DNA of 64,000 nt from Limosilactobacillus reuteri (lineage in GTDB: Bacteria > Bacillota > Bacilli > Lactobacillales > Lactobacillaceae). The stretch covers positions 558,001-622,000 of the forward strand of contig NZ_CP059275.1 of assembly GCF_013694365.1 (NCBI RefSeq). The letters run 5' to 3'. Below the pieces are notes generated by a model, which saw nothing but the letters and a program-made list of their open reading frames with translations, searched no databases and was not told the DNA's origin. Below are positions 203-57,984 of this stretch, in pieces (within the stretch, counting starts at the first letter, position 1; every line of letters starts with the position of its first letter). Both the position numbers and the translations under genes were made by a program.

Positions 203-487
203 ATGTTTAAATTAATTCCACGGCGTTCCCTAATAATTTACATTAACAATAATCGTGTGATTCGAGCTCTTCGTCATTATGGTCAGATTGATTATATTTC
301 CCGACGAATGCATTATGTGGTAATGTATGTAGACCAAAGTGATGTCGAAAAAATAAAAGAGAAGATAAGTCGATTACGCGCAGTGAAAAAGGTTGAATTA
401 TCAGCTCGGCCAGATTTAGACCCGACGTTAGCTGATCTTGAATTAACAGGGGTCTATCAATTACATGATGAGGATGATAAAAAATGA
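203..487 (+). CDS. ylbG: UPF0298 (DUF2129) family protein YlbG
   Basis: This 94-residue basic protein opens with RRSLIIYINNNRVIRALRHYGQIDYISRRMHYVVMYVD, the recognisable core of the YlbG/UPF0298 family. It is a small cytoplasmic protein of Firmicutes with no established biochemical role. Family members sit next to rsmD and ftsW/typA, as here. The ATG at 203 is supported by an unusual route: the first eight bases (203-210) recur as the last eight bases of ftsW, and a GGAGG motif sits 8 bases upstream of that copy. In the native genome ylbG therefore starts inside the ftsW stop region. It ends in AAAAAATGA, compatible with a native ATGA overlap with rsmD. Confidence 0.88.
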   Translation: MFKLIPRRSLIIYINNNRVIRALRHYGQIDYISRRMHYVVMYVDQSDVEKIKEKISRLRAVKKVELSARPDLDPTLADLELTGVYQLHDEDDKK

Positions 488-1711
488 GTGAAGAAAAAGA
501 AATTAAGATTCCGTAAGATTCGTTCTGTATGGAATAACGTCCGCTACCTTGATTATTATATTTTAGTTCCTTACCTTGCTTTATGTTTAGTAGGAATTGT
601 AATGGTCTATTCAGCTAGTGCTTCCATTGAAATGCAAAATGGTGGAACCCCATTAGGATATTTAGTAAAACAAACAATCTATGTTGTAATGGGAGTTGCG
701 GTAATGGCATTTATGGCAAATTATCCTTTGCGGCATTATCGAACGCCAAGGTTTTTACGAGATTCAACATTGGTAGTTGGTGCTTTACTTGTCATTGTTT
801 TGGTTTTTAGTCGGGCTGTTAACGGAGCTAAAGGTTGGATATCCTTGGGCTTCTTTAATATTCAACCGGTGGAAATTTGTAAGCTATATTTTATCTTATA
901 TTTAGCTGATCGAATGGCTAAAATTAGGCAACGTGGACAACATTTTACCACTGATGCTAAAGGTCCTTGGCTCATAATTGCAGTTTTTCTCGGGTTGATT
1001 ATGATTCAACCAGATATTGGAGGAATGGCGATTAACGGAGCGATTATTGCAATCATGCTTTTAGCGGCGGATTATAAATGGGGCGTTGGTTTGGAAATAA
1101 TTCTTGTCTTACCAGCGCTTGGCTACCTTGGATTGGAACGACTAGTTGAAAGTGGTTTGCTTCAAGGCGGTGGATACCAAGTTGCGCGTTTTGTTGCCTT
1201 TCTAAATCCCTTTGGAAATGCTAGTGGTTCAGGAAATCAATTAGTTAATTCCTATTATGCAATCAGCAATGGTGGTGTATTTGGGGTTGGACTTGGAAAT
1301 AGTATTCAAAAAATGGGATATTTGCCAGAGCCCAATACCGACTTTATTATGTCAATTACTAGTGAAGAATTGGGTCTAGTCGGGGTAACGGCAATTTTAG
1401 TTACTTTACTCTTTTTGATCTGTCGTATTATTCAAGTTGGGGTGCGGGCAGATAGTTTGTATCAAACGCTCATCTGTTATGGCTCAGCAACATTCTTTAC
1501 GATTGAAACACTCTTTAATATTGGTGGAGTTCTAGGACTCTTGCCGATTACGGGGGTTACCTTCCCATTTATTAGTTACGGGGGATCAAGTATGTTGATT
1601 CTTTCTGCAACGGTAGGCATTATAATGAATATTAGTATGCAGCAAAATCGGGATCGCTTGGTTATGGGGAAACCATTTATTCCTGAAACAGGAGGCGTAA
1701 AGAATGTTTAA
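488..1711 (+). CDS. ftsW: SEDS-family peptidoglycan glycosyltransferase FtsW
   Basis: This 407-residue polytopic membrane protein has a GTG start and about ten hydrophobic segments beginning near residue 24. SEDS hallmarks are visible: VNGAKGWISLG with FNIQPVEICK, the extracytoplasmic stretch NQLVNSYYAISNGGVFGVGLG, then PNTDFIMSITSEELG. The Asp in that last motif is the presumed catalytic residue of the family. A late PFISYGGSS motif is also present. FtsW polymerises lipid II glycan strands at the septum with a class B PBP. It lies outside the dcw cluster, beside typA, as usual in lactobacilli. Its last 21 bases carry the ribosome binding site and start of ylbG, showing that natively ftsW precedes ylbG. 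Confidence 0.93.
   Translation: MKKKKLRFRKIRSVWNNVRYLDYYILVPYLALCLVGIVMVYSASASIEMQNGGTPLGYLVKQTIYVVMGVAVMAFMANYPLRHYRTPRFLRDSTLVVGALLVIVLVFSRAVNGAKGWISLGFFNIQPVEICKLYFILYLADRMAKIRQRGQHFTTDAKGPWLIIAVFLGLIMIQPDIGGMAINGAIIAIMLLAADYKWGVGLEIILVLPALGYLGLERLVESGLLQGGGYQVARFVAFLNPFGNASGSGNQLVNSYYAISNGGVFGVGLGNSIQKMGYLPEPNTDFIMSITSEELGLVGVTAILVTLLFLICRIIQVGVRADSLYQTLICYGSATFFTIETLFNIGGVLGLLPITGVTFPFISYGGSSMLILSATVGIIMNISMQQNRDRLVMGKPFIPETGGVKNV
1691..1695 (+). promoter_or_regulatory. Shine-Dalgarno GGAGG for native ylbG, displaced
   Basis: GGAGG lies inside the ftsW coding end. It is followed after 8 bases by ATGTTTAA (1704-1711), identical to the first eight bases of ylbG at 203-210. In this window the motif serves no adjacent gene with good spacing. 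Natively it would initiate ylbG. Confidence 0.85.
1704..1711 (+). repeat. Octamer duplicate of the ylbG start
   Basis: ATGTTTAA ends ftsW, and the same eight bases open ylbG at 203-210. This is the expected trace of an 8-base native gene overlap copied into both extracted genes. Confidence 0.85.
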
Positions 1712-3556
1712 TTGAAAACTCGTGACGACATTCGTAACATTGCGATTATTGCCCACGTTGACCACGGTAAGACTACCTTAGTTAACGAAATGTTGAAGCA
1801 ATCAGATACTTTACCAGAACACTTCTCAATTGAAGATCGTGCGATGGATACTAACGCTATTGAGCGTGAACGTGGTATTACTATTCTTTCAAAAAATACT
1901 GCTGTTAAATATGATAATCACCAAATTAACATCTTGGATACACCAGGACACGCGGACTTCGGTGGTGAAGTTGAACGTGTTATGAAGATGGTTGATGGTG
2001 TATTACTTGTTGTGGATGCTTTCGAAGGGACAATGCCTCAGACACGGTTCGTCCTTAAGAAGGCCCTTGAACAACACTTAACACCAATTGTTGTGATTAA
2101 CAAGGTTGACCGTAAAGGTGCTCGTCCTGAAGAAGTTGTGGATGAAGTTCTTGACCTCTTTATCGAATTAGGTGCAGATGAAGATCAACTCGACTTCCCA
2201 GTTGTTTACACTTCAGCAATGAACGGTACTTCAAGTTATGATTCAGATGTTTCTACTCAAGAACACACCATGAAGCCATTGTTTGATACTATTATCAAGA
2301 CAATCCCTGCTCCAGTAGACAATTCTGATGAACCACTTCAATTCCAAGTTGCTATCTTAGATTACAATGACTTCGTTGGTCGAATCGGTATCGGTCGTGT
2401 CTTCCGTGGTAAGATTAAGGTCGGCGATAATGTTACCTTAATGAAACTTGATGGCTCAAAGAAGAATTTCCGGGTTACTAAGCTTTTTGGTTTCTTCGGT
2501 TTGAAGCGGTTGGAAATTAATGAAGCTGAAGCTGGTGATTTGATTGCGGTTTCTGGGATGGAAGACATCAATGTTGGTGAAACTGTAGCTGATGCAGAAC
2601 ATCCCGAAGCAATTACTCCATTACGGATTGATCCACCTACATTACAAATGACTTTCCGGACTAACGATTCTCCATTCGCTGGTCGTGAAGGTAAATTTGT
2701 TACTGCCCGTCAGCTTGAAGATCGTTTGAAGCGTGAAATGCAAACTGATGTGTCCTTAAAGGTTGAAGATACTGATGATCCAGGTGCATGGACTGTTTCT
2801 GGTCGTGGGGAATTACACCTTTCTATCTTGATCGAAACATTACGTCGTGAAGGATATGAGTTATCTGTATCACGTCCACAAGTTATTTACCGTGAAATTG
2901 ATGGAGTAATGAGTGAACCATTTGAAGAAGTTCAAATCGATACTCCAGATGAATATACTGGTGCAGTTATTGATAGCCTTTCTAAACGTAAAGGTGAAAT
3001 GAAGAACATGGAACCAGGCGAAAATGGTCAAACTCGTCTTATCTTCTTAGCACCATCACGTGGCTTGATTGGATACTCAACTGAATTTATGACTATGACC
3101 CGTGGTTACGGAATCATGAGCCATACCTTTGAAAAATACGCACCAGTTATCAAGAACTGGAACCCTGGTCGTCAAAAGGGTACTCTTGTGTCCATGAATG
3201 CTGGTAAGGCTACTACTTACGCAATGATGGGTATCGAAAGTCGTGGTCAATTATTAATTGATCCAGGTACGGAAGTTTACGAAGGTATGATCGTTGGTGA
3301 AAACAGTCGTGAAAATGATATTACTGTTAACATCACCAAGGGTAAGAACTTAACGAACGTTCGTGCTGCTGGTTCTGATGAAATGGCTCACATTAAGACC
3401 CCTACTCACTTCTCCCTTGAAGAATCACTCGAATTCTTAAATGAAGATGAATACTGTGAAGTAACTCCAGAAAATATCCGTTTACGGAAGAAGACCCTTA
3501 ACACAAATGCCCGTGAAAAGGAAGCTAAGCGTCGTCGTGCTGCTTCACGGAAGTAA
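1712..3556 (+). CDS. typA: Ribosome-associated translational GTPase TypA/BipA
   Basis: This 614-residue translational GTPase has a TTG start. The G-domain motifs appear in order: [10 protein letters not shown] near residue 14 (P-loop), RERGITI in switch [12 protein letters not shown] in switch II and NKVD near residue 128. An EF-G-like domain II, the TypA-typical stretch with [12 protein letters not shown], and [23 protein letters not shown] follow. The C-terminus is basic. TypA associates with the ribosome and helps 50S assembly and stress or cold adaptation. Length matches the family. In this window it sits between ftsW and suhB, consistent with the usual lactobacillar order read backwards. 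Confidence 0.96.
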
Positions 3557-4330
3557 ATGATTAGTATTGAAGAGTTAGATCAAAAAGCACAACAAATAAT
3601 TCGTCAAGCAGGTCAAAATGCATACCAGAAAATGGAAAATGATTACCAGATTGATACAAAGACGAATTATACTGACCTTGTAACGACAATTGACCGGGAA
3701 AATGAACAATTAATAAATGATCAACTACGAAAAATTGATCCTGATAGTCAAATTTTAAGTGAAGAAGGATTTGGCGACAAACAAATAAGCAATATGCAAG
3801 GACATGTTTGGATTGTTGATCCGATTGATGGAACAATGAATTTTGTTAAGCAGCATAATAATTTTGCTGTTATGTTAGCATTGTATGTTGACGGTCAACC
3901 GATGCTTGGCTATATTTTAGATGTAATTAATAATCGTCTTTACCATGGTCGAAAGGGTGCTGGTGTTTATGTTAACAACCAAAAAATTGGCCAGCCAGCT
4001 GACTTAGGCTTGCGAGAGAGTTTGTTAGCGATGAATCGGACATTAACTTTAAGTGGTGATTCAGCATTAAAGAAAATCGCTCAAGACGCAATAGGCTTAC
4101 GGATGTATGGAAGTGCGGGCATTGAGGTGATTGGTGTGATCACAGGTCAATTAGGTGGATATATCTCTAATTTGAAGCCATGGGACCTTGCTGCTGGGCG
4201 AATGTTAGCAGAAGAATTAGACTTAGTTGTGAAATCAATTGACGGTAGTTCTATTAATGTGTTATCATCTAATCTTGTATTAGTAGCAACGAGGCAGGTT
4301 AGTCGAGATATTCGACAGATCATCAATTAG
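3557..4330 (+). CDS. Inositol monophosphatase family protein (SuhB-like)
   Basis: This 257-residue protein has the three metal-binding signatures of the lithium-sensitive phosphatase family: ILSEEGFG near residue 66, VWIVDPIDGTMNF near 89 and KPWDLAAGRM near 208. These coordinate Mg2+ for hydrolysis of sugar or inositol phosphates. The actual substrate in lactobacilli is not certain; fructose-1,6-bisphosphate, inositol-1-phosphate and related phosphates are alternatives. The first eight bases, ATGATTAG, recur at the end of the following UPF0223 gene (4617-4624). The two overlap by 8 bases natively, with UPF0223 upstream. Confidence 0.88.
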   Translation: MISIEELDQKAQQIIRQAGQNAYQKMENDYQIDTKTNYTDLVTTIDRENEQLINDQLRKIDPDSQILSEEGFGDKQISNMQGHVWIVDPIDGTMNFVKQHNNFAVMLALYVDGQPMLGYILDVINNRLYHGRKGAGVYVNNQKIGQPADLGLRESLLAMNRTLTLSGDSALKKIAQDAIGLRMYGSAGIEVIGVITGQLGGYISNLKPWDLAAGRMLAEELDLVVKSIDGSSINVLSSNLVLVATRQVSRDIRQIIN

Positions 4331-4624
4331 ATGAATTCACATAACTATAGTTATCCCCTTGATCTATCATGGACAACTAAAGAGATGGAAACGGTAATTG
4401 CCATGTTTAGGGCGGTTGAAGATGCTTATGAAGTTGCGATTGATAGAGATAAAATTTTAGATTGTTATCGTGCCTTTAAGCAAGTCGTTCCCTCAAAGGC
4501 TGAAGAGAAACAATTGGGTCGCGAATTTGAAAAGAATTCGGGTTATGTTCTCTACCGTGTTGTCAAAGCAGCACAAGAGTCAACAGATAAGCGAATTAAG
4601 ATGGTTAGGCAAAAAAATGATTAG
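4331..4624 (+). CDS. UPF0223 family protein (YktA-like)
   Basis: This 97-residue protein contains YPLDLSWTTKEMETVIAMFRAVEDAYE and a C-terminal helix KNSGYVLYRVVKAA, both recognisable features of the UPF0223/YktA family. The role is unknown. The protein is predicted cytoplasmic, without membrane segments. In lactobacilli and bacilli the family lies between pdhD and the inositol-phosphatase gene, and that neighbourhood is kept here. The final bases (AAAAAATGATTAG) contain the suhB-like start codon, so translational coupling to that gene in the native operon is likely. Confidence 0.85.
   Translation: MNSHNYSYPLDLSWTTKEMETVIAMFRAVEDAYEVAIDRDKILDCYRAFKQVVPSKAEEKQLGREFEKNSGYVLYRVVKAAQESTDKRIKMVRQKND
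4617..4624 (+). repeat. Octamer duplicate of the suhB-like start
   Basis: ATGATTAG closes the UPF0223 gene and also opens the preceding gene at 3557-3564. The pair is again explained by a native 8-base overlap copied into both extracted genes. Confidence 0.85.
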
Positions 4625-6052
4625 ATGGCTGATGTTGAACAAAAGGATACAGTAATTGTTGGTGGAGGTCCTGGTGGTTATGTAGCCGCTATTCGAGCTT
4701 CAGAATTAGGTCAAAAGGTTACCTTAATTGATAAGGGAGAACCAGGTTTAGGTGGTGTTTGTTTAAATGTTGGATGTGTACCATCTAAAGCATTAATTGC
4801 TGCTGGCCACCGTTACCAAGAAACTTTAGACTCATCTATTTATGGTATTTCTAAAACCGATGCAAAGCTAGACTTTACTAAGACTCAAGAATGGAAGGAC
4901 CATAAAGTTGTCGACCGTATGATTCGTGGAGTTAAGATGCTTTTGAAGAAGCATAAAGTTGAAATCATTGATGGAGAGGCAATTCTTGATAATGACCACC
5001 AACTTCGTGTAATCAAGCCTGGTCCAAAGCAATTCATGGATAATGATAATGGTCGTACTATCACGTGGAAGAATTTAATTCTTGCAACAGGAAGTCGTCC
5101 AGTAGAAATTCCTCATTTTAAGTTTGAAGGTCGTGTTATTGATTCAACCGGTGGCTTAAACCTTAAGAAAGTACCAGAAGAATTAGTTGTAATTGGTGGG
5201 GGCTACATTGGTACAGAATTAGCTGGTGCCTATGCTGATCTTGGTGCTCATGTAACGATTATTGAAGGTACTGATTCAATTCTTGGTGGATTTGACCACG
5301 ATATGGTTGATATTGTTGTCAAGAATCTTGAAAAGAAGGGCGTAGACATTGTAACTAAGGCAATGGCTAAAGATTCTCAGCAAGATGAAAATAGCGTTAC
5401 TGTCACTTATGAAGTTGATGGTAGCGAAAAGAGCATTAAAGCAGACTACTGCATGGTATCTGTTGGTCGTAAACCAAATACTGATGATTTTGGGCTTGAT
5501 ATGACAAATGTTAAGTTAAACGACCGTCATCAAGTAATTGTTGATGAACAAGGCCGGACGAATGTACCTGGTATTTGGGCTATTGGAGATATTGTTCCTG
5601 GTCCTGCACTTGCTCACAAGGCATTCTTTGAAGCTAAGACTGCCGCTGGTGCCATTGCTGGTAAGAATACTGCTAACGATTGGGTTGGAGTACCAATGGT
5701 TTGTTTTGCTGATCCAGAATTAGCTCAAGTTGGTATGACGGTTGAAGAAGCTAAAGATAAAGGAATTGATGTATCTACTGCTCAATTCCCATTTGCCGGT
5801 AATGCCCGTGCTGTTTCTCTTGATGCTGCCGAAGGATTTATTCGCTTAATCTACACTAAAGATAAGAAAAATGTTATTGGTGCTCAAGGTGTCGGTCCTG
5901 GTGTTAGTGACCTTACTGGTGAACTTTCATTGATTGTCAACTGTGGTATGAATGTTGAAGATGTTGCTTTAACAATTCACCCACACCCAACATTGAATGA
6001 ACCTGTTCAAGAAGCTGCAGATATTGCGCTTGGCTTCCCAACACATATTTAA
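4625..6052 (+). CDS. pdhD: Dihydrolipoyl dehydrogenase, E3 of pyruvate dehydrogenase
   Basis: This 475-residue flavoprotein disulfide reductase begins with the FAD Rossmann motif VGGGPGGYVAAIRASELG. The redox-active disulfide motif GGVCLNVGCVPSKAL follows near residues 42-56. An NAD-binding GGGYIGTELAGAYADLG lies near residue 190, an FAD contact motif GIWAIGDIV near 317, and the C-terminal catalytic HPHPTLNE near 450. It reoxidises dihydrolipoamide on E2 and transfers electrons to NAD+. The native operon order is pdhA-pdhB-pdhC-pdhD. Here pdhD stands first, each gene still in sense, which is a key sign of reversed concatenation. Confidence 0.97.
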   Translation: MADVEQKDTVIVGGGPGGYVAAIRASELGQKVTLIDKGEPGLGGVCLNVGCVPSKALIAAGHRYQETLDSSIYGISKTDAKLDFTKTQEWKDHKVVDRMIRGVKMLLKKHKVEIIDGEAILDNDHQLRVIKPGPKQFMDNDNGRTITWKNLILATGSRPVEIPHFKFEGRVIDSTGGLNLKKVPEELVVIGGGYIGTELAGAYADLGAHVTIIEGTDSILGGFDHDMVDIVVKNLEKKGVDIVTKAMAKDSQQDENSVTVTYEVDGSEKSIKADYCMVSVGRKPNTDDFGLDMTNVKLNDRHQVIVDEQGRTNVPGIWAIGDIVPGPALAHKAFFEAKTAAGAIAGKNTANDWVGVPMVCFADPELAQVGMTVEEAKDKGIDVSTAQFPFAGNARAVSLDAAEGFIRLIYTKDKKNVIGAQGVGPGVSDLTGELSLIVNCGMNVEDVALTIHPHPTLNEPVQEAADIALGFPTHI

Positions 6053-7387
6053 ATGGCATACATTTTTAGACTACCAGAAATGGGAGAAGGATTAACTGAA
6101 GGTGATGTTGCTTCTTGGCTCGTTAAAGAAGGAGAAGCAATTAAAGCTGATGATCCTTTAATTGAAATTCAAACTGATAAATCGACTACTCAATTGGTAT
6201 CCCCAGTTGATGGAACTGTCAAAAAATTATTTGTAAAAGAAGACGACCACGTTGAAAAGGGCGACAAGCTCGCTGAAATTGATGATGGTAAGCCTGGTAT
6301 TAGTACAAACGTCGAAAGCGAAGACGACGATGATGAAACTGATACAGGCAGTGAAGAAGCTACTGAAAGTGAAAAATCCACGGCTCCAGCTGCAGATTCT
6401 CCTTCAGAAGATAATTCTCCAAAGGGTGGAGTAGCTCCACTTGCAGAACCAAACAAGCTTGTAATGGCAATGCCTTCTGTTCGTCAATATGCCCGTGATA
6501 AGGGTGTTGATATTTCACTTGTTCAACCAAGTGGTAACCACGGTCAAGTTCTTAAAGAAGATATTGATAACTTTAATGGGTCAGCTGCTCCAGCTAAGGA
6601 AGAAAAGAGTGCAGCTATGTCAGCTAAGACTGCTCCAGTTGCAGCTAAGACCGCTGGTAATACAATCAAGCCATGGAATACCGACCTTGAAGAACGTGAA
6701 CCAATGTCTAATATGCGGAAGATTATCGCTAAGACTACTCGTGAATCAAAGGATATCTCGCCACATGTTACATCATTTGATGAAGTTGAAGTATCTGCTC
6801 TAATGGCTAGTCGCAAGAAGTACAAGGCAGTTGCTGCAGAACAAGATATTCACTTGACTTTCTTGCCATACATTATTAAGGCTTTAGTTGCCACATGCAA
6901 GAAGTTCCCAGAATTAAATGCTTCAATTGATGATTCTACTCAAGAAATTGTTTACAAGCACTACTATAATGTTGGGATCCTTACAAACACTGACCACGGT
7001 CTCTATAATCCAAATATTAAGAATGCAGATTCTAAGAGCATGTTTGAGATTGCAAAAGAAATTACCGAAAATACTCAAGCGGCCTTTGATAACAAGCTAA
7101 GTCCGGAATCAATGGCTGGTCGGACTATCAGTATCAGTAATATTGGTTCAATTGGCGGTGGCTGGTTCACCCCTGTTATCAACCAACCAGATGTTGCCAT
7201 TCTTGGTGTTGGTCGAATTGACAAGGAACCATACGTTAACGAAGATGGTGAAATTGTTGTTGGTCGAATGATGAAGTTATCATTGACTTACGATCACCGT
7301 TTAATTGATGGTGGACTTGCACAACATGCATTGAACTACATGAACAAGTTATTACATGATCCAGAATTATTGATGATGGAGGGCTAG
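6053..7387 (+). CDS. pdhC: Dihydrolipoamide acetyltransferase, E2 of pyruvate dehydrogenase
   Basis: This 444-residue protein has one N-terminal lipoyl domain with the lipoylated Lys in [11 protein letters not shown], near residue 43. An acidic, Ser/Glu-rich linker follows, then a peripheral-subunit-binding domain ([18 protein letters not shown], near 141) and an Ala/Lys-rich linker. The C-terminal catalytic acyltransferase domain ends with [14 protein letters not shown], which contains the catalytic His. It transfers the acetyl group from lipoamide to CoA. A single lipoyl domain is common in Firmicutes. The 3' end has GGAGGG just before the stop, a likely ribosome binding site for native downstream pdhD. 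Confidence 0.96.
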
Positions 7388-8365
7388 ATGGCTAAAAAGA
7401 CTTATATCAAAGCTATTACTGAAGGTATTGACATCGCTTTAGCCGAAGATCCTAAGACTTTAGTATTCGGTGAAGATGTTGGTAAAAACGGTGGTGTTTT
7501 CCGTGCGACTAATGGGCTTCAAGAAAAATACGGTGTTGATCGAGTATTTAGTACCCCTCTTGCCGAATCAGGTATTTTAGGAATGTCAATTGGTTTAGCA
7601 GTAACTGGCTGGCGTCCAGTACCAGAAATTCAATTCATGGGCTTTACTTTTGAAGCAATGGATTCTATCGCTGCTCAAATGTCAAGGATACGTTTCCAAT
7701 ACAATGGGACTAAGCATGCACCAATTACTATTCGGACTCCTTATGGTGGTGGTACTCATACTGCTGAACTACACGGGGATGATCTTGAAAACTTCTTCGT
7801 TGGTATTCCAGGATTACGGGTTGTTGCACCAAGTTCTGCCTATGATGCTAAGGGATTAATTATTTCTGCAATTGAAAATAACGATCCAGTTCTTTTTCTT
7901 GAAAACCTTCGTCTCTATCGTTCAGTCAAAGGTGAAGTTCCTGATGACAAGTATACTGTTCCGTTGGATAAAGCAAATGTTGTTCAAGAAGGTACTGATG
8001 TTACAATTATCGCTTATGGTGGTGAAGTATCAGAAGCACAAAAAGCCGCTAAGAAATTAGCTAAGGACAATATTTCTGCTGAAATTATCGACTTACGTTC
8101 TCTTTACCCACTTGATACTGACACGATCTTTGAATCAATTAAGAAGACGCACAGAGTAGTCATTGTTCAAGAAGCGCAAAAGATGGCTGGTGTTGGTGCC
8201 CAAGTTGCATCAGCTATTTCAGAAGGTGCAATTATGTATCTTGATGCTCCTGTTACCCGGGTTGCTGCTCCTAACTCAGTATATCCATTCCCACAAGCTG
8301 AAAATGTTTGGCTTCCAGGTGCACGTGATATTGAGGATGCCGTACGAGAAGTAATTAATTACTAA
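7388..8365 (+). CDS. pdhB: Pyruvate dehydrogenase E1 component, beta subunit
   Basis: This 325-residue transketolase-like subunit begins KKTYIKAITEGIDIALAEDPKTLVFGEDVGKNGGVFRAT. The E1beta fold signatures FSTPLAESGILGMSIGLA and EIQFMGFTFEAMDSIAAQMSRIRFQ follow, then RTPYGGG and a C-terminal domain with VVIVQEAQKMAGVGAQVASAI. It forms the thiamine-diphosphate-dependent heterotetramer with E1alpha that decarboxylates pyruvate and acetylates E2 lipoamide. Length and motifs are normal. Its likely native ribosome binding site is the AAAAGGAG at the 3' end of pdhA (9456-9463). Confidence 0.97.
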   Translation: MAKKTYIKAITEGIDIALAEDPKTLVFGEDVGKNGGVFRATNGLQEKYGVDRVFSTPLAESGILGMSIGLAVTGWRPVPEIQFMGFTFEAMDSIAAQMSRIRFQYNGTKHAPITIRTPYGGGTHTAELHGDDLENFFVGIPGLRVVAPSSAYDAKGLIISAIENNDPVLFLENLRLYRSVKGEVPDDKYTVPLDKANVVQEGTDVTIIAYGGEVSEAQKAAKKLAKDNISAEIIDLRSLYPLDTDTIFESIKKTHRVVIVQEAQKMAGVGAQVASAISEGAIMYLDAPVTRVAAPNSVYPFPQAENVWLPGARDIEDAVREVINY

Positions 8366-9472
8366 ATGGCCAATACCAAAGCTGTCAATTTTGCTGAGAT
8401 TAAAGCCAATGAAGGGGTACCTTATGCAAAACCCGTACAAATTCTGGATAACGACGGAAATGTTGTTAACGAAGAATTAATGGCTAATTTCAATGATGAA
8501 TTATTAGTTGACTTAATGAAAAAAATGGTTTGGGCACGTGCCTTGCATGAACAAACAATGAGTTTTTCAAAGCAAGGTCGATTAGGTTTCTATGCGCCAA
8601 CTTGGGGTGAAGAAGCTTCTGAAATGGGAACAGCTGCTGCATTTAAGAAGCAAGACTTCCTTTTCCCTGCTTATCGTGATTTGCCACAATTAATTCAACA
8701 TGGAGCAACTGTTGCTCAAATGTACTTATGGTCAAAGGGACACATCAAAGGTAACCTTTTTGATGCACGTGCTCTCCGGCCACAAATTATTATCGGAGCG
8801 CAGATGGTCGAAATGGCTGGTGGTGCTCTTGGAATTAAGAAGAATGGTGAAAAGGACACTGTTGCCTATGCTTACACTGGTGAAGGTGGAAGCTCACAAG
8901 GGGATACTTATGAAGGAATGAACTTTGCTGGTGCATTCCAAGTACCTGGTGTATTTATTATTCAAAATAATGGATGGGCTATTTCGTTCCCACGAAAGCT
9001 ACAAACTGAAACACAAACAATTGCCCAAAAGGCTGTTGCTGCTGGAATTCCAGGTGTCCAAGTTGATGGAATGGATGTCCTTGCATGTTATGAAGTTGCT
9101 AAAGAGGCACGTGAATTTGCTGCTGCTGGTAATGGACCAGTGCTAATCGAAACATTAACATACCGGTTTGGTGCTCACAGTTCAGCAGGTGATGATCCTA
9201 CTCGTTACCGGACTGAGGATGAAACAAAGCCATGGTTTGATAAAGATCCATTGATTCGTCTTCGCAAGTACCTAACGAAAAAGGGGCTTTGGTCTGAAGA
9301 AGAAGAACAAAAATATGCTGATGAATGCAAACAAAGCTTTAAAGAAGCAATGAAAGAAGCAGACTCAGTAGAACCTGAAAAAGTTAGCGATATGTTGAAG
9401 CGGACGTTTGAAGTACCAACTCCAGACATTAAAGAACAAATTAAGAAGTACGAAGAAAAGGAGTCGAAGTAA
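8366..9472 (+). CDS. pdhA: Pyruvate dehydrogenase E1 component, alpha subunit
   Basis: This 368-residue subunit carries the thiamine-diphosphate binding region GEGGSSQGDTYEGMN, ending in FIIQNNGWAIS (family pattern GDG...NN), near residues 172-208. The phosphorylation-loop region YRFGAHSSAGDDPTRYR is also present. It works with E1beta in pyruvate decarboxylation. Natively it should be the first pdh gene, with def upstream; here def follows it. The C-terminus is a charged helix, and the bases encoding KEKESK include the purine-rich AAAAGGAG suited to starting pdhB. Confidence 0.97.
   Translation: MANTKAVNFAEIKANEGVPYAKPVQILDNDGNVVNEELMANFNDELLVDLMKKMVWARALHEQTMSFSKQGRLGFYAPTWGEEASEMGTAAAFKKQDFLFPAYRDLPQLIQHGATVAQMYLWSKGHIKGNLFDARALRPQIIIGAQMVEMAGGALGIKKNGEKDTVAYAYTGEGGSSQGDTYEGMNFAGAFQVPGVFIIQNNGWAISFPRKLQTETQTIAQKAVAAGIPGVQVDGMDVLACYEVAKEAREFAAAGNGPVLIETLTYRFGAHSSAGDDPTRYRTEDETKPWFDKDPLIRLRKYLTKKGLWSEEEEQKYADECKQSFKEAMKEADSVEPEKVSDMLKRTFEVPTPDIKEQIKKYEEKESK
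9456..9463 (+). promoter_or_regulatory. Shine-Dalgarno AAAAGGAG at the pdhA 3' end
   Basis: The motif ends 9 bases before the next start codon. In this window that start is def, but in conserved pdh operons the gene after pdhA is pdhB, so the site most likely belongs to pdhB. Confidence 0.6.
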
Positions 9473-10033
9473 ATGTATTTAATGAAAGATATTACCCGTG
9501 ATGGCAATCCCGTTTTACGTAAACGAGCTGCTAAGGTCTCATTTCCCCTATCTGATGAAGACCAAAAATTAGCAAAGGATATGATGCAATACTTAGAAGT
9601 AAGCCAAGATCCTGAATTATGTGAAAAGTACAAGTTACGAGCTGGAGTTGGCCTTGCCGCTCCTCAAGTTGGTGTTTCAAAGCAAATGGCTGCTGTCCTT
9701 GTTCCCGCACCTGCTGAAGGTGAAAAGCCCTTATTTAAGGACGTTATCATTAATCCAGTAATCGTTAGTGAATCGGTTCAATATGGTGCTCTTACTGAAG
9801 GCGAAGGTTGTCTTTCAGTTGATAAAGACGTGCCTGGCTACGTACCACGACATGACCGCATCACATTACGTTATCAAGACGTTAACGGTGAAACTCATAA
9901 GGTACGATTAAAGCATTATCCAGCAATTGTTTGTCAGCATGAAATTGACCATTTGCATGGGGTGCTATTTTACGATCATATTAATAAAGATCAACCATTT
10001 GAGGCGCCTGCAGATACAGTAATGATTAGTTAA
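9473..10033 (+). CDS. def: Peptide deformylase
   Basis: This 186-residue type-2 deformylase has all three catalytic motifs: [10 protein letters not shown] near residue 60, EGCLSVDKD near 109 (metal-ligand Cys) and [14 protein letters not shown] near 151 (metal-binding His pair and catalytic Glu). The insertion between motifs one and two is typical of Gram-positive enzymes. It removes formyl groups from nascent polypeptides. It neighbours pdhA in many Firmicutes. Start MYLMKDI is accepted because the conserved [10 protein letters not shown] follows at once; a second Met at residue 4 is an alternative. Confidence 0.96.
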
Positions 10034-10510
10034 ATGGTTATATTCTTAATCTGTATTTTAGCAGCAATAATTGTTATTGCTCTTTATTTAACGATCCATC
10101 GCGTATTTCTTAAGCGAGCAACGATGATGGTACAGAAAAACGCTCAAGACGTTACTGATGCAGCGTTAAATACTAGTTTGAAAGAAATGTTACATTGGAA
10201 TAAAAATCTAAATTCTCAAATTGTTGCCGATGTTTGGGGAAAAGGTGTGCTTGCTTTTGAATACCATTTTGATTATAAAAAAGAAAATATTAATCTTGAT
10301 GATTTCACACGTCAAAAACTAGCAGCAGAACTTAATGAATATGCAAAACGACACCATTTAAAGATGGCTCCCAAAGCCTCTCAACCGTTTATTATAACCG
10401 ATTGGTGGAAATATGAGGGGATTTTGCATATCGATATTGCCTATTTGATAAATGAAGCAACTGTTGAGTACATTGAAGATTTAAAAAAATTAAATCAAAA
10501 TAGTAATTAG
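10034..10510 (+). CDS. Membrane-anchored protein of unknown function
   Basis: I do not recognise this 158-residue protein. An N-terminal hydrophobic helix (about residues 2-22, FLICILAAIIVIALYLTI) is followed by a basic stretch, suggesting a single membrane anchor with the rest in the cytoplasm. The remainder is mixed alpha/beta, with several aromatic residues (GKGVLAFEYHFDY, ITDWWKYEGILHIDIAYLI). No catalytic motif is visible. It sits between def and rpoY, where lactobacilli often keep a small hypothetical gene. Expression from the same transcript is plausible but cannot be shown here. Confidence 0.7.
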   Translation: MVIFLICILAAIIVIALYLTIHRVFLKRATMMVQKNAQDVTDAALNTSLKEMLHWNKNLNSQIVADVWGKGVLAFEYHFDYKKENINLDDFTRQKLAAELNEYAKRHHLKMAPKASQPFIITDWWKYEGILHIDIAYLINEATVEYIEDLKKLNQNSN

Positions 10511-10723
10511 ATGACTTTTAAAGTATACTACCAAGCTGATAAGACAAAACGCCCAGTTCGTGAAAACACTCAATCATTGTATATTGAAGCTGATTCAGAA
10601 GCTGAAGCACTTTTAATGGTTGAACACAATACTGACTACAATATTGAATTTGTAGAACAACTTGATGAAAAGGCCCTTGCTTACGAAAAGCAAAACCCTA
10701 ACTTTAAGTTGACGACGTTCTAA
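10511..10723 (+). CDS. rpoY: RNA polymerase epsilon subunit RpoY
   Basis: This 70-residue acidic protein contains FKVYYQADKTKRPVRENTQSLYIEA and YNIEFVEQLDEKALAYEKQN, which match the RpoY (YkzG, UPF0356) family. It is a small accessory subunit of Firmicutes RNA polymerase, structurally related to the phage inhibitor Gp2. In bacilli it is encoded beside rnjA and near def/pdh. Here it neighbours def, but no rnjA is present. Length is typical. Confidence 0.92.
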   Translation: MTFKVYYQADKTKRPVRENTQSLYIEADSEAEALLMVEHNTDYNIEFVEQLDEKALAYEKQNPNFKLTTF

Positions 10724-11671
10724 ATGAATTATTCAATCATCCTCAACCGTCATGCTGGTAATGGTAATGCAGAAAAGGCATGGTCGTCAATTAAACCGGT
10801 CTTAGATCAACAACAAATTGATTATCACATGGAAACAACTAAGTATCCTAATCATGGAGAATACCTTGCCAGCCAAATCGCCCAATCTCATAATGCGAGA
10901 TCAACAATTGTCATTGCGATTGGTGGTGATGGTACGCTACATCAAGTTGTTAATGGACTTATGAAGACGGCCAAGCGATTGAATAAAAAACCACTTGCGG
11001 TTGGATATATTCCTGCTGGGACAGGAAATGATTTTGCCCGCGGTTACGGGATTTCTATGCATCCACAAAGGGCATTAAATCAAATTTTAACTGCAGACGC
11101 ACCACAAAAAATTAACATTGGTCATTATCATGAGGCGATTCGGGGTGAAGAAGGTTATTTTCTTAATAATTTAGGGATTGGTTTTGACGCGGCAATTGTT
11201 AGTCGTGCTAATACGTTTAAGGCTCGTCACAAGAAAAATCATATTGGGCGTTTCACCTACCTCCAAAAGGCAATTGGAGTAATCTATGATCAAGAGCCCT
11301 TTACCCTGATGATTCAATCTGGGCGTGAACGCTTTATTTTTCCTAAAGCTTACATCGCAATTACCAGCAACCATCCATTTATCGGTGGTGGATTTAAAGT
11401 TGCCCCAAGTGCTTCGTTAAAGAAACCATCATTGGAATTAGTCGTCGCTGAACGGAAAGGATGGCCTATGACAATATGGCAATTGCTGCAATTAGCCCAA
11501 GGCAATTTAGATCAATCAAAATTTGCCCACCACTTCCAAAGCGATAATCTCCACATCACAACTACTTCACTAGAATTTAGTCAAACTGACGGAGAAGAAA
11601 TAGGTAATCGTTTTATCGACCTCACCCTAGACATTAGTCAATATCCAATTTGGCAAACAACAGAAAAATAA
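10724..11671 (+). CDS. Diacylglycerol/lipid kinase family protein (DagK/YegS-like)
   Basis: This 315-residue protein starts with NYSIILNRHAGNGNAEKAW and has the nucleotide-binding GGDGTLHQVVNGL near residue 67, then PAGTGNDFARG near 102. It also shows LGIGFDAAIVSRAN and the C-terminal SLEFSQTDGEEIG, all marks of the soluble lipid kinase family. Members phosphorylate diacylglycerol or related lipids at the membrane, recycling DAG from lipoteichoic acid synthesis. The exact lipid is inferred from the family. The gene is complete, with no unusual features. Confidence 0.9.
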   Translation: MNYSIILNRHAGNGNAEKAWSSIKPVLDQQQIDYHMETTKYPNHGEYLASQIAQSHNARSTIVIAIGGDGTLHQVVNGLMKTAKRLNKKPLAVGYIPAGTGNDFARGYGISMHPQRALNQILTADAPQKINIGHYHEAIRGEEGYFLNNLGIGFDAAIVSRANTFKARHKKNHIGRFTYLQKAIGVIYDQEPFTLMIQSGRERFIFPKAYIAITSNHPFIGGGFKVAPSASLKKPSLELVVAERKGWPMTIWQLLQLAQGNLDQSKFAHHFQSDNLHITTTSLEFSQTDGEEIGNRFIDLTLDISQYPIWQTTEK

Positions 11672-11875
11672 ATGAGTAACAAACATGAAATTGAAGAAGA
11701 TTTATACCGTGCACAGTCCCGTTTGGATGATTTATGTAAACAAGAGGGACAGGAAAATACGGGCACTCAGACTGTTACTATTCAACCAAAATACGGTGAA
11801 GAGATGCAATCTTTACGGGAAGAATGCAGTCAGTTACGGATTATTTTAGAAGCAATGGAAGCTTCTGAAGATTAA
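11672..11875 (+). CDS. Small hypothetical charged protein
   Basis: This 67-residue, strongly charged, Glu/Gln-rich protein has two predicted helices (IEEDLYRAQSRLDDLCKQEG and EEMQSLREECSQLRIILEAMEA) joined by a Thr/Gln-rich loop, so it could form a coiled-coil dimer. It has two Cys residues. I do not recognise the family. Its frame is fully open between the lipid kinase and the cell-wall hydrolase genes, which supports it as an annotated gene, but function is unknown. Confidence 0.6.
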   Translation: MSNKHEIEEDLYRAQSRLDDLCKQEGQENTGTQTVTIQPKYGEEMQSLREECSQLRIILEAMEASED

Positions 11876-13387
11876 ATGAGTAAAAAAAGAACACATCATT
11901 CAAATAACCATCGATCTCGTGGCGTTTTTGCAGGAGCAGTTAGTGCCTTAAGTTTATTAGCAGTGACAACACAAGCAGTTAATGCTGAACAGCTTACTGT
12001 TAAGTCTGGTGACACTATTTGGGGGCTTGCAAAACAACATGGACTTTCTATTAGTGCATTAGAACAAACAAATCCTTCAGTTAAGAAGATAAGTGATAGC
12101 ATCGACTTAATTACAGTTGGTCAACAATTAACGTTGCCTACTACTCAACATGATGCTAACGCGGATTTGAATACTGATGGTAGTTATACTGTTAAGCCTG
12201 GCGACACGCTTAGCTCTATTGCAGATCGTTATAATGTAACTGTTAGTCAATTAATGTCATGGAATAACTTAAGCTCTAATGATTCATTATACATTGGACA
12301 ACAACTCAGTGTAACAGGTCCTGCGATCTCAACTGCTGTAAACGCGCCCGTTGTAAGTACCCCTGTTGCTGATGCGAGTGTATCGGCTCAGCAACCGGCT
12401 GCTCAATCGACGGACACAACTTCATTGATCCAGGTTCAAACTTCAGCAGTTGCCTCTGCTTCTGTGCCTCAACAAGATGTGGCTAGTAGCCAACCAGCAG
12501 GAACTTCACAAGCAACTCCTGCTTTGAGTGCAACGCAACAAGTTTCAACTTCTTCAACAGTAGCTGCTCCTAACCAAAGTGCAGCCAACAATAGTAGTAC
12601 CACTATTGCGAATAGTACAACTTCGACTTCTGCTGCTGTAACGTCCTCAGCAACTACTAATAGTCCAGCCATTACAACAGTTGCTGCTCAACCTGCTACA
12701 GCTAATAATGTTCAGGTTGCTTCTGCCTCAGCTGAAAATAGTGTTGCACCGCAAACACAAAGTTTTGCTGTTAGTCAAGCTACTTCAACAGCTGTGAATA
12801 CTGCTGCTTTATATGGACAATCATTTGTTCAAGTAGCACCAGTAGCAAGTCAAGCTTCACAATCACAGACTGCACCAGCATCACAAGCGACGGATAACGT
12901 TCAGAATAGTAATGCTGCTTCGCAACAAACAACTGTTATAACGTCACAAGCTCAACCGCAACAATCACAAGCGGCTGCTAGTCAACCTGCACAGCAAGCA
13001 GCAACTACTAATCAAGATTTACAACATGGTTCTGTAGTTAGTCTTGCCACTAAGATTGCTAACTCTAATAGTGTTCCATACGTATGGGGTGGTGAAAGTC
13101 TTAGTGGAATGGATTGTTCTGGATTAGTTAAGTATGTTTATGCTAATGCGGAAGGTAAGCAATTACCACACTATACAGGAGCACTTGAAAACTGTGTGGA
13201 CCAACATCCAGTTAGTGAAGCTAAGCCAGGCGATCTCTTATTCTGGGGTAACCATGGTTCAACTTACCATACAGCTATTTACACAGGAAATAATCAATAT
13301 GTGGCCGCTGCTCACCCAGGGACTAATGTTTCGACTTACACAATCAGTCCATACTTTAATCCAAGTTTTGCCGGAACGGTTAAATAG
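11876..13387 (+). CDS. Secreted LysM and NlpC/P60 peptidoglycan hydrolase
   Basis: This 503-residue secreted protein has a signal peptide of about 37 residues ending near AVNA-EQ. Two LysM domains follow (about residues 39-85, LTVKSGDTIWGLA, and 101-145, YTVKPGDTLSSIA). A low-complexity Ala/Gln/Ser/Thr linker runs to about residue 385. The C-terminal NlpC/P60 domain has the catalytic Cys in GMDCSGLVKYVY, His in STYHTAIYTG and a third polar residue near AAAHPGT. It probably cuts D-Glu to diamino-acid peptide bonds in the cell wall, acting in cell separation. The linker composition is unlike its neighbours but usual for such enzymes. Confidence 0.93.
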   Translation: MSKKRTHHSNNHRSRGVFAGAVSALSLLAVTTQAVNAEQLTVKSGDTIWGLAKQHGLSISALEQTNPSVKKISDSIDLITVGQQLTLPTTQHDANADLNTDGSYTVKPGDTLSSIADRYNVTVSQLMSWNNLSSNDSLYIGQQLSVTGPAISTAVNAPVVSTPVADASVSAQQPAAQSTDTTSLIQVQTSAVASASVPQQDVASSQPAGTSQATPALSATQQVSTSSTVAAPNQSAANNSSTTIANSTTSTSAAVTSSATTNSPAITTVAAQPATANNVQVASASAENSVAPQTQSFAVSQATSTAVNTAALYGQSFVQVAPVASQASQSQTAPASQATDNVQNSNAASQQTTVITSQAQPQQSQAAASQPAQQAATTNQDLQHGSVVSLATKIANSNSVPYVWGGESLSGMDCSGLVKYVYANAEGKQLPHYTGALENCVDQHPVSEAKPGDLLFWGNHGSTYHTAIYTGNNQYVAAAHPGTNVSTYTISPYFNPSFAGTVK

Positions 13388-13684
13388 ATGAATAGTCTAA
13401 TAACGTTTATTATTTCAATTGCCTTTTTAGGATTAGTGATTTGGGAAAATCGTTTACATAGTCAACTTGGATTCTTGGCAAGTCAACGACCAGATAAAGT
13501 TACAAAGGATTTTATTCGGGTAGTTCGTCAAGAAAAACGGTTGAATTGGATCTTGTGTATACTAGCAATTATTGTTTTCATGACGACTAGTCGTTACTCA
13601 GTTCTATTAATGAGTATTATTACAATTATTGAATTGTTATTAGTAACTCGTATGGATCGTGTAAAAAATGAAATGATAGATTAA
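13388..13684 (+). CDS. Small integral membrane protein of unknown function
   Basis: This 98-residue protein has a hydrophobic N-terminus (SLITFIISIAFLGLVIW) and two later hydrophobic stretches (WILCILAIIVFMTT and YSVLLMSIITIIELLLV), giving about three membrane segments with a basic loop between the first and second. The family is not recognised. Its first eight bases, ATGAATAG, recur at the end of the following gene (14028-14035). The two genes overlap by 8 bases natively, with the acidic protein upstream, so they are probably co-translated. Confidence 0.65.
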   Translation: MNSLITFIISIAFLGLVIWENRLHSQLGFLASQRPDKVTKDFIRVVRQEKRLNWILCILAIIVFMTTSRYSVLLMSIITIIELLLVTRMDRVKNEMID

Positions 13685-14035
13685 ATGGAAGATAATAAAT
13701 ATCAATATGATGAAAACGGCTTTCGTGAAGATTTAAAAGATGATCCAGATGTCCTCCACCAGCCAGATGCTGACCGTACACAGCGCGATTTAATAACTCT
13801 GGACTATGATGAGACGTTGGCATTTCTTAATGGTGAAAAGGAAGTTAAGACTGTTTATGACTTTTCAGATGATGTTTTGGAAAAAATAAAAGAAAAATAT
13901 CCAACCCTAAATGATACACCGATCAATAAAGTAATCATGGAAAAATATCAGCAGATTTTATCCGCTCGATACAATGAATCACAAGCAAATAATAAGACGG
14001 TGCATGCCGATGATAGCGAGGATAATGATGAATAG
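13685..14035 (+). CDS. Acidic cytoplasmic protein of unknown function
   Basis: This 116-residue, Asp/Glu-rich protein has no membrane segment or signal peptide. Readable parts are YDENGFREDLKDDPDVLHQPDADRTQ, a central helix YDFSDDVLEKIKEKYP and an acidic tail DDSEDNDE. I do not recognise it. The gene ends GAGGATAATGATGAATAG, where GAGG and the internal ATG form a good ribosome binding site and start for the small membrane protein at 13388. Together they look like a two-gene unit of unknown role. Confidence 0.6.
   Translation: MEDNKYQYDENGFREDLKDDPDVLHQPDADRTQRDLITLDYDETLAFLNGEKEVKTVYDFSDDVLEKIKEKYPTLNDTPINKVIMEKYQQILSARYNESQANNKTVHADDSEDNDE
14028..14035 (+). repeat. Octamer duplicate of the start at 13388
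   Basis: ATGAATAG ends this gene and begins the preceding one at 13388-13395. A GAGG motif 6 bases before the octamer supports it as the genuine native start of the membrane protein. Confidence 0.82.
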
Positions 14036-15187
14036 ATGAAATTTGTAATTGCTCCAGATTCATTTAAAGGCGGACTAACAGCAAAAGAAGCAGCAAATGT
14101 GATGGCAGAAGGAATTAAAAGAGTGTTTCCGAATGCCGAGTATGTTTTAGTTCCAATGGCTGATGGAGGAGAAGGAACTGTTCAATCCTTAGTTGATGCG
14201 ACTAACGGTCGAAAAATGATTGCTAAAGTCCACAACCCATTAAATAAATTAGTTAATGCTGAGTACGGAATATTAGGTGATGGGGAAACAGCAGTGATTG
14301 AAATGGCAGCGGCAAGTGGCCTTCAATTTGTTAATAAGGAGACTGCGAACCCGCTTATTACAACTACATATGGTACCGGCGAGTTAATTAAGGATGCTCT
14401 TGACCATAACATAAAAAAAATAATTATTGGAATTGGTGGAAGTGCAACCGTTGATGGCGGGGCGGGAATGGCCCAAGCACTTGGAGCACGTTTACTGGAT
14501 GCTGATAATCATGAAATTGGTTTAGGCGGTGGTGAGTTAGCAAGTTTAGAGCAAATAGATTTTGGAGACTTAGATCCTCGCTTAAAAAATGTAGATATTC
14601 AGATTGCATCAGACGTTACCAACCCATTAACAGGAAAAAATGGGGCCGCCCCAGTATTTGGCCCGCAAAAAGGAGCTGATGACGAAATGGTGAACATCTT
14701 GGACAAAAATCTTCATCATTATGCACGAAAAATAGTTGCAGCTGGTGGGCCAGACGTTGAACAAACGGCAGGTGCAGGGGCAGCCGGTGGTTTAGGAGCC
14801 GGATTAATAGCATTTACCGGTGCGACAATGAAGCGAGGAGTAGAATTAGTGATTGAAGCAACTCAACTACAAAAAAAGGCAGTTGGCGCTGATTATGTTT
14901 TTACTGGTGAAGGAGGAATTGATTTCCAGACTAAATTTGGTAAAACGCCATATGGAGTCGCTAAGGCAACTAAAGAGGTGGCTCCTAATGCTCCAGTAAT
15001 TGTGTTGGCTGGAAATATTGGTAAAGGTGTAAATGATCTATATTCATCCACGGCCATCGATGCAATTTTTGCAACTCCTGAAGGGGCTAAACCATTAAAA
15101 GCAGCATTAGCAGATGCACCTATTGATATTGCGCAAACAGCAGAAAACGTTGCGCGTTTAATTAAAGTGAGTCATGTTAATAATTAG
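14036..15187 (+). CDS. Glycerate kinase, GlxK/GarK family
   Basis: This 383-residue type II glycerate kinase opens with KFVIAPDSFKGGLTAKEAANVMAEGIKRVFP and contains VPMADGGEGTVQSLVDA, GIGGSATVDGGAGMAQALGA near residue 140 and NPLTGKNGAAPVFGPQKGA near 205. A late YVFTGEGGIDFQTKFGKTPYGVA is also present. All are family hallmarks. It phosphorylates D-glycerate to 2- or 3-phosphoglycerate, feeding lower glycolysis. It precedes a GntP-type permease and a CdaR-type regulator, a common catabolic cassette. Because the broken regulator is read N-terminal fragment first, this block was probably on the native + strand. Confidence 0.94.
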   Translation: MKFVIAPDSFKGGLTAKEAANVMAEGIKRVFPNAEYVLVPMADGGEGTVQSLVDATNGRKMIAKVHNPLNKLVNAEYGILGDGETAVIEMAAASGLQFVNKETANPLITTTYGTGELIKDALDHNIKKIIIGIGGSATVDGGAGMAQALGARLLDADNHEIGLGGGELASLEQIDFGDLDPRLKNVDIQIASDVTNPLTGKNGAAPVFGPQKGADDEMVNILDKNLHHYARKIVAAGGPDVEQTAGAGAAGGLGAGLIAFTGATMKRGVELVIEATQLQKKAVGADYVFTGEGGIDFQTKFGKTPYGVAKATKEVAPNAPVIVLAGNIGKGVNDLYSSTAIDAIFATPEGAKPLKAALADAPIDIAQTAENVARLIKVSHVNN

Positions 15188-16483
15188 ATGATTTCTTGGT
15201 GGGGAGCATTAATAGGATTAGCACTTGCGATTTTTTTAATTTTACGAAAATTAGATCCAGTATATTCATTATTACTAGGTGCAATAGTCGGCGCCGTTAT
15301 TGGTGGGGCTGGTTTAGAAGGAACTATTAATATTTTGGTTAAAGGTGAACAAAGTGTAATGGGAACGGTCCTTCGAGTATTAGCAGCAGGAATGTTAGCT
15401 GGTGTTATGATGGATTCTGGGGCTGCCGAAACCCTTGCACGGACAATCGTTAATAAATTTGGTGATCGGTTAGCTATTTTTGCATTAGCTCTAGCAACGA
15501 TGATAATTACAGCTGTGGGTGTCTTTATCCCAGTCGCTGTTTTAATTGTTGCACCAATTGCCCTTGAAGTTGGTCGCAATATGCATATTTCAAAATTATC
15601 TTTATTGGTTGCCTTATCTGGTGGAGGCAAGGCAGGTAACATAATCTCACCAAATGCAAATACAATTGCAGCAGCAAAGGGTTTTGGGCTTGAACTAAGT
15701 CAAGTAATGATTGCTGATTTTATTCCTGCCGTCATCGCTTTAATAGTTACAGTTGTTGTAGCTAGAATGATCCGCAAAAAAGGTAGGGCAGTTCTAGAAC
15801 AAGATCTTGAAGATAGTGCAAAAACAATCAAGCAAAGTGATTTGCCGACATTTAAACAAGCCATCGTTGCTCCTGTTATTGCAATAGTTTTACTTTTATT
15901 AGGACCAATTGGAACTATTTGTCATTTACCATTATTAGCAAAAGTAAATTTAGATGCTACCTATGTTTTGCCATTTGCAGCAATAATAGGTGCTCTAGCA
16001 ATGGGAAAAGGTGAAAAAATTAAGAGTTATGCTCAGACCGGTGTTAGTCGAATGACTGGCGTAGTAATGATTTTAATTGGTGCAGGTGCAATTGGTGCTA
16101 CTATTACTGCGTCTACTTTCCCAGAGTTATTAATCGAACTTATTAAGGCAAGTCATGTGCCTGGTGTCTTATTAGCACCACTTTCTGGTATTCTCATGGC
16201 CGGAGCAACTGCTTCAACCTCTACGGGTGTTATTTTAGCTACTGGTTCTTTTGCCAAGTCTATTTTAGGATTTGGTGTTGCACCACTTGCAGCGGCTGCA
16301 ATGGTTCATACTGGGGCGATTGTCATTGACCAATTACCTCAAGGAAACTATTTCCACGTTACAGCGAATGCAATGCATATGGATATTAAAGAACGATCGC
16401 AAGGTATTTTTTATGAATTCTTAGTTGGAGGTTCCGCAATGTTAACCGCAACTATCTTGTATGGCTTTTTGCATTTACTATAA
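15188..16483 (+). CDS. GntP-family permease, likely glycerate or sugar-acid:H+ symporter
   Basis: This 431-residue protein has about 12 hydrophobic segments, beginning WWGALIGLALAIFLILRKLDPVYSLLLGAIVGAVIGG. The GntP-family motif region SLLVALSGGGKAGNIISPNANTIAAAKGFG lies near residue 140, and late GAIVIDQLPQGNYFHVT also fits. Known members import gluconate, idonate, D-serine or glycerate with protons. Pairing with glycerate kinase favours glycerate, but that is inference. The protein is complete and of typical length. Confidence 0.9.
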   Translation: MISWWGALIGLALAIFLILRKLDPVYSLLLGAIVGAVIGGAGLEGTINILVKGEQSVMGTVLRVLAAGMLAGVMMDSGAAETLARTIVNKFGDRLAIFALALATMIITAVGVFIPVAVLIVAPIALEVGRNMHISKLSLLVALSGGGKAGNIISPNANTIAAAKGFGLELSQVMIADFIPAVIALIVTVVVARMIRKKGRAVLEQDLEDSAKTIKQSDLPTFKQAIVAPVIAIVLLLLGPIGTICHLPLLAKVNLDATYVLPFAAIIGALAMGKGEKIKSYAQTGVSRMTGVVMILIGAGAIGATITASTFPELLIELIKASHVPGVLLAPLSGILMAGATASTSTGVILATGSFAKSILGFGVAPLAAAAMVHTGAIVIDQLPQGNYFHVTANAMHMDIKERSQGIFYEFLVGGSAMLTATILYGFLHLL

Positions 16484-16702: not shown

Positions 16703-16712
16703 ATGCCCTTAA
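16693..16712 (+). repeat. 10-base tandem duplication at a split gene
   Basis: ATGCCCTTAA occurs twice in tandem: first as the stop end of the N-terminal cdaR fragment, then as the start of the C-terminal fragment. A single copy restores the continuous reading expected for the family, so the duplication is a joining artefact. Confidence 0.85.
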
Positions 16713-31813: not shown

Positions 31814-32947
<1,134 letters not shown>

Positions 32948-52405: not shown

Positions 52406-52525
52406 ATGCAGCGAAAAAAGAAAACTCGTTTCCAAAAAATTACCATGGTTGCTATTTGGCTCATGTTAATTGCAATGCTTGGTTCTTTAATCTTTGGAGC
52501 AGTTGCATCCTTAAACTTAATTTAG
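52406..52525 (+). CDS. DUF4044 family small membrane protein
   Basis: This 39-residue ORF (MQRKKKTRFQKITMVAIWL...FGAVASLNLI) has a highly basic N-terminus and one membrane helix (about residues 14-36). The start follows the DUF3397 stop and the TAG ends directly before ftsK, so it occupies the whole gap. Basic leader plus single helix and the position next to DUF3397 match DUF4044 proteins of lactobacilli. It is probably inserted with the N-terminus inside. Function is unknown. Confidence 0.82.
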   Translation: MQRKKKTRFQKITMVAIWLMLIAMLGSLIFGAVASLNLI

Positions 52526-57253: not shown

Positions 57254-57442
57254 ATGGCATGTACCGGAGCATGTTTACTTATTGCAGAACAAAATGAAAT
57301 TATCACTCCTGTTTTCAAAAATAAACTAAGTACTTTTAATAAGCATTCTTCAACTATTGCTGATATCTTTGACCGATGTAATGACAATTCTTTAGTCATG
57401 GATACAATTAAACAGACCCTGGTAAAAAATATTACTCTGTAG
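57254..57442 (+). CDS. Orphan short ORF of unknown function
   Basis: This 62-residue ORF starts MACTGACLLIAEQNEIITPVFKNKL and ends at TAG, directly before the IS66 fragment. It has three Cys (two in CTGAC near the start, one in FDRCNDN) and a mostly helical remainder. I do not recognise it. It may be the end of a gene broken by the adjacent insertion elements, or a small gene of the island. Confidence that it is expressed is low. Confidence 0.4.
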   Translation: MACTGACLLIAEQNEIITPVFKNKLSTFNKHSSTIADIFDRCNDNSLVMDTIKQTLVKNITL

Positions 57443-57964
57443 TTGAAAAAAGAACAATTGAAGAATTCCAAAGCATACCAAGTTTTACAACTAATGCGAC
57501 CAGTTTTTCACGAAGAGAAACAATTAGCATATCACACTCATAAGGAAAAGCTAGTGCAACGTCGGTTGCACGTAAAACCCTTGATGGATAAGTTCTATGC
57601 CTATTTAGAAAACATTAACTTTCCTCAAGGACGTTTAAGAGCCGCCATTAACAATGCTTTAAAGTTAAAAACACGAGTGTATCGAATTTTTGAAGATGGC
57701 CGAGTACCATTAACAAATAATCCTGTTGAACGAGCGATTCGTCCATCAACTCTTATTCGAAAGAATAGCTTATTTGCGAAAAGTACTGCCGGAGCTCAGG
57801 CAAATGCCATTTTCTATACTTTGGTGGCAACTGCAAACCAGAACCATTTAAATATCTACAAATACTTTAAGTATCTTTTTGATCACTTACCAAACCGCAA
57901 GGACGAAGGACTTGAGGCTTATTTACCATGGTCAAAAGAAGTCCAAACAGAATGCCATAAATAA
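57443..57964 (+). pseudogene. IS66-family transposase, C-terminal fragment
   Basis: These 173 residues, called from TTG, contain the IS66 end: KPLMDKFYAYLE, LKLKTRVYRIFEDGRVPLTNNPVERAIRPSTLIRKNSLFAKSTAGAQANAIFYTLVATANQNHLNIYKYFKYLF and a final LPWSKEV. The Glu in NNPVERAIRP is the last member of the DDE triad. The N-terminal helix-turn-helix, zinc and first catalytic Asp segments are missing, so it is a truncated transposase of an element normally encoding about 500 residues. The TTG start is only the gene-finder's choice. Confidence 0.88.
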
Positions 57965-57984
57965 TCCCGAAATGTCAATTTAAG
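57965..57984 (-). mobile_element. Probable IS30-type element end beyond the transposase stop
   Basis: Twenty bases separate the IS66 stop from the minus-strand IS30 stop. Read on the minus strand they give AATTGACATTTCGGGA just downstream of the transposase gene, where an IS30 terminal repeat is expected. The right-hand IS30 copy lacks this segment. Confidence 0.45.

Follow-up and report, generated by a model that had tools for sequence, protein, structure and literature searches.

The window analysed here, a 64,000-nucleotide stretch of Limosilactobacillus reuteri (positions 558001-622000 of a single 2,085,667-bp record), raises the question of whether it represents chromosomal sequence or a series of coding sequences (CDS) written one after another. 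The initial annotation had described plus-strand open reading frames (ORFs) lying end to end from 203 to 57964 and again from 59055, and an ORF walk along the window confirmed this, giving 64 ORFs in the first block and five in the second (59055-63803), all on the plus strand and with zero bases between each stop codon and the next start. Start codons in the first block are ATG, GTG or TTG, each directly 3' of the preceding stop, and the stop codon at 200-202 of the preceding piece, presumably RsmD to judge from its neighbours, is likewise flush with the start at 203. The chain is interrupted only at 57965-59054, between the two blocks. Scanning the window for Rfam families (at gathering scores) and for tRNA genes returned no match, a result that carries little information on the organism. 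Features of the window are given in Table 1.

Table 1. Coordinates of features in the 64,000-nucleotide window, with the evidence for each.
Positions	Strand	Feature	Evidence
1..202	+	End of preceding written-out CDS	ORF 32-202 flush with 203; separate alignment piece in 4 of 4 relatives
203..57964	+	64 abutting CDS, each given in its coding orientation	ORF walk; mapping to strain WF-AA1-C
4625..9472	+	Pyruvate dehydrogenase (PDH) genes E3, E2, E1 beta, E1 alpha	Reverse of natural order, each still on plus strand
9473..10033	+	Peptide deformylase	Best NCBIfam match; natively on opposite strand to PDH genes
57443..57964	+	IS66 transposase C-terminal part, last ORF of first block	Pfam IS66 matches
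57965..58371	+	Written-out repeat with transposase fragment, read as draft contig end	Exact repeats
58372..58758	+	Transposase CDS of 57985-58371, a second time as reverse complement	Stop codon present, no start codon
58759..59054	+	Written-out repeats, read as next draft contig start	Exact repeats
59055..63803	+	Five CDS end to end, read as next draft contig	Split three to two between the strands in the relative

End-to-end writing throughout the record

The same pattern extends over the whole record. Defining a chain as at least three abutting ORFs of at least 25 amino acids each, we found 117 chains, all of them on the plus strand; they comprise 2,282 ORFs and 1,924,770 bases, or 92% of the record. 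By comparison, 80 loci of Lactobacillaceae relatives (1,661,272 bases) contain five chains, counting both strands together. The abutment lies far beyond chance. Of 20 samples of 20 kb taken elsewhere in the record, 18 are patterned in this way over 79 to 98% of their length, and the remaining two, near the end of the record, have no chain of three or more ORFs. A fault confined to the window was considered and rejected, as the chains are record-wide. Towards the tail of the record (~2.0 to 2.085 Mb) abutting ORFs are scarce, and repeats, RNA genes and fold-back fragments are abundant, as expected for the many tiny contigs that close a size-sorted draft.

Spacing, strand and gene order relative to Limosilactobacillus genomes

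The initial annotation had proposed nucleotide alignment as a way of locating breakpoints, and we aligned positions 1-16000 of the window to L. reuteri WF-AA1-C, L. balticus, L. agrestis and L. caviae. In all four genomes the match is not collinear: it falls into separate pieces on mixed strands (for example 203-488, 488-1711 and 1712-3558), with breaks within ~20 bases of ORF boundaries, the only other breaks being inside a variable ORF at 11876-13387. This agreement among the four alignments supports the earlier claim that CDS features, and not chromosome, are written end to end. Beyond position 16000 the alignment to WF-AA1-C breaks at the boundaries in the same way with the exception of three junctions, 26017/26018, 59879/59880 and 61247/61248, each spanned by a single alignment. 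At these junctions the two genes keep the same order and orientation in WF-AA1-C, where they are 12 bases apart, one base apart and overlapping by one base, respectively, so that a gapped alignment can bridge them. Apart from these three bridged junctions, no result contradicting concatenation was found.

Gene by gene, the window corresponds closely to this strain. Sixty-two of the 69 ORFs match WF-AA1-C end to end within 9 bases at 91.6-99.5% identity, and 65 could be mapped to the WF-AA1-C stretches examined, of which 55 share one strand and 10 occupy the opposite one; the ORFs starting at 15188, 16484, 16703 and 57443 had no match in these stretches. For the first block, 60 of the 64 ORFs lie on WF-AA1-C contig C36 in descending order, 53 on the plus and seven on the minus strand. 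Genes that occupy both strands in the relative are thus all turned to the plus strand in the window. The intergenic bases are lost as well. With gene ends in WF-AA1-C extrapolated from the alignments, none of 62 comparable neighbour pairs abuts in that strain; in 56 the genes are 1 to 4,335 bases apart, and in six they overlap. Each of the four native 8-nt overlaps occurs twice in the window: the shared bases open one gene of the pair and close the other, with the two copies at the outer ends of the pair; the two native overlaps of 1 nt are too short to show doubling.

The first genes of the window illustrate the effect on gene order. Best NCBIfam matches identify a hypothetical family (203-487), FtsW (488), TypA (1712), dihydrolipoyl dehydrogenase E3 (4625), E2 acetyltransferase (6053), E1 beta (7388) and E1 alpha (8366), the matches at 203, 488, 6053 and 7388 being under the curated cut-offs. 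In relatives, E1 alpha, E1 beta, E2 and E3 follow one another on one strand and the deformylase gene is on the opposite strand. A reversed PDH order in which every gene still reads on the plus strand is what is expected from a coordinate-ordered list whose minus-strand genes were individually reverse-complemented. Ribosome-binding motifs are also affected: among the 62 ORFs aligned from their first base, a Shine-Dalgarno-like motif is present upstream of 51 in WF-AA1-C versus 7 in the window. Record-wide, 245 of 2,165 ORFs have such a motif as against 4.3% of 5,000 random positions, leaving a small excess. The variable gaps, ribosome-binding motifs and natural operon order of a native chromosome are accordingly not what characterizes the window.

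RNA genes and repeats in the record, and a probable contig junction within the window

The pasted material is not limited to CDS, and in this respect, as in its extent over the whole record, our analysis goes beyond the initial annotation: RNA genes, repeats and a CRISPR array were pasted as well. The record contains three full-length 16S rRNA genes and 81 tRNA matches, 77 on the plus and four on the minus strand. One 20-kb stretch has 21 tRNA genes spaced by 0 to 16 bases, several without any base between them. At record positions 1306183-1308050 and 2046506-2048368, a full-length 16S rRNA gene (two of the three) is directly followed by minus-strand 16S pieces, which are probably repeats written out. 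A 2,347-bp CRISPR array, whose period is 66 bp and whose commonest 28-mer occurs in 35 exact copies, is present twice (record positions 988706-993399), the copies being identical and flush with each other, with a stop codon on one flank and an ATG on the other. Such exact doubling is expected from a list in which the entry for the array is followed by its repeats and spacers one by one, in order, and spacer counts taken from this record would be doubled.

Between the blocks of abutting ORFs are 118 gaps totalling 160,897 bases, 74% of which recur elsewhere in the record at an identity of 90% or higher. The remaining 26% have no second copy at this identity, and some of these bases belong to RNA genes or to ORFs in chains of fewer than three. 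Exact repeat pairs peak at a length of 127 bp (152 direct, 150 inverted), with 126 and 128 bp also high, and 74 of the 118 gaps carry an exact repeat of 125-129 bp. Distances between these repeat-bearing gaps (n = 73) fall along the record from 179 kb to ~1 kb (Spearman -0.93), with exceptions such as a 3-kb block near the record start. Exact 127-bp repeats and shrinking blocks are the marks of a de Bruijn assembly made with k=127 and with contigs ordered by length. Both are found here, suggesting that a draft of this kind, with length-sorted contigs, underlies the record.

The interruption at 57965-59054 fits this pattern and seems to be the one draft-contig junction inside the window. On its left side, 57965-58091 is an exact 127-bp repeat and 58245-58373 a 129-bp repeat of other places in the record; on its right side, the same is true of 58759-58885 (127 bp) and 58931-59054 (124 bp). 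Across the gap the match to WF-AA1-C switches from contig C36 to contig C35. Between the repeats, 57985-58758 is a perfect palindrome with two arms of 387 bases, a multiple of three. Its right arm (58372-58758) is open throughout, begins with CTT and ends with TAA, and has weak integrase-core matches under the Pfam cut-off; judging by its sequence, it is written as a minus-strand gene cut by a contig end would be. A second perfect palindrome with 387-base arms, its right arm also open and with a stop codon at the end, occurs at record positions 550906-551679. Neither palindrome is a natural inverted repeat. Among the 12 perfect palindromes of the record, four have an open, stop-terminated right arm and fit a repeat followed by its own minus-strand CDS, and the other eight require a different cause, such as repeats written on both strands.

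Origin and use of the record

We conclude that the record is almost certainly a concatenation and not a chromosome; the best reading is a joined file of feature DNA, probably obtained by annotating a draft k=127 assembly with a RASTtk/PATRIC-like pipeline. Abutment, a single strand, doubled overlaps and alignment breaks at feature ends were all found, as a concatenation of features would have them. The source file would have contained CDS, tRNA, rRNA, repeat regions and a CRISPR array together with its individual repeats and spacers. Features would have been written 5' to 3', each in its own orientation and following the order of contigs and coordinates, before being joined into one sequence. 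Minus-strand genes, being reverse-complemented singly, appear in a list running opposite to their transcription, intergenic bases were dropped and natural overlaps were written twice. The underlying assembly would be a short-read draft made with k=127 and with its contigs sorted by length.

RASTtk/PATRIC may be the pipeline involved, a suggestion drawn from the kinds of feature, and the same concatenation could have come from another pipeline with its own repeat and CRISPR features. We consider this unlikely; it is a variant of the preferred explanation, and the probabilities of the two overlap. PATRIC gives CRISPR repeats and spacers separately from the array, which favours it over another pipeline. 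A further point in its favour is the listing of repeat regions beside CDS, tRNA and rRNA among RASTtk/PATRIC features in the feature table of PMC11804002. The passages of PMC7660901 consulted hold nothing helpful on the origin of the record. A concatenation of CDS alone, as would result from an ordinary CDS file or from the core genes exported by a pan-genome program, would agree with the 92% of the record made up of abutting ORFs, but is very improbable and was rejected because the record also holds the rRNA and tRNA genes, the repeats and the doubled CRISPR array described above, and because gene order in the window follows that of a related strain. The proposal that this is a real, compact chromosome, in which intergenic DNA was lost and all genes came to lie on one strand, can draw on the end-to-end alignment of most window ORFs with L. 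reuteri and on the completeness score of the record, but is rejected as practically impossible given the alignment breaks at ORF ends, the ordinary spacing in a relative of such high identity, the mostly absent ribosome-binding motifs, the doubling of overlaps at separate places, a PDH operon ordered against its own transcription, a CRISPR array present twice without any change, and blocks that shrink along the record between repeat-bearing gaps.

A joined feature-DNA file, as we take the record to be, has practical consequences. The initial annotation was right to regard the window as unusable for inferences on promoters, operon spacing or riboswitches, and gene direction should be added to this list. 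Over most of the record neither spacing nor gene direction nor operon order is genuine, and promoters, terminators and cis-regulatory RNAs are therefore not in place; single genes can still be read, and inferences on anything larger are unsafe. Completeness of the record is given as 100% and contamination as 0.96%, scores that are blind to this fault. Completeness checks count proteins only, so that pasted lists pass. The fraction of ORFs whose start codon directly follows a stop would offer a cheap screen for such records, and the value of the present case lies mainly in the warning and in this screen. It is possible, if rather doubtful, that other genomes in reference collections are also pasted feature lists, which their rate of abutting ORFs would reveal. 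No published report of a pasted record of this kind appeared in the titles and abstract openings among the matches listed.

Two known systems provide the closest comparisons. Contigs C36 and C35 of WF-AA1-C resemble the window in their genes and neighbourhood order, but differ from it in having natural gaps and overlaps, genes on both strands and ribosome-binding motifs. Feature-DNA FASTA files, of which the PATRIC/BV-BRC feature DNA file and the Prokka ffn file are examples, resemble the record in giving features in their own sense and in coordinate order, without flanks and with overlaps doubled, the difference being that the entries of the record form one continuous sequence stored as a genome.
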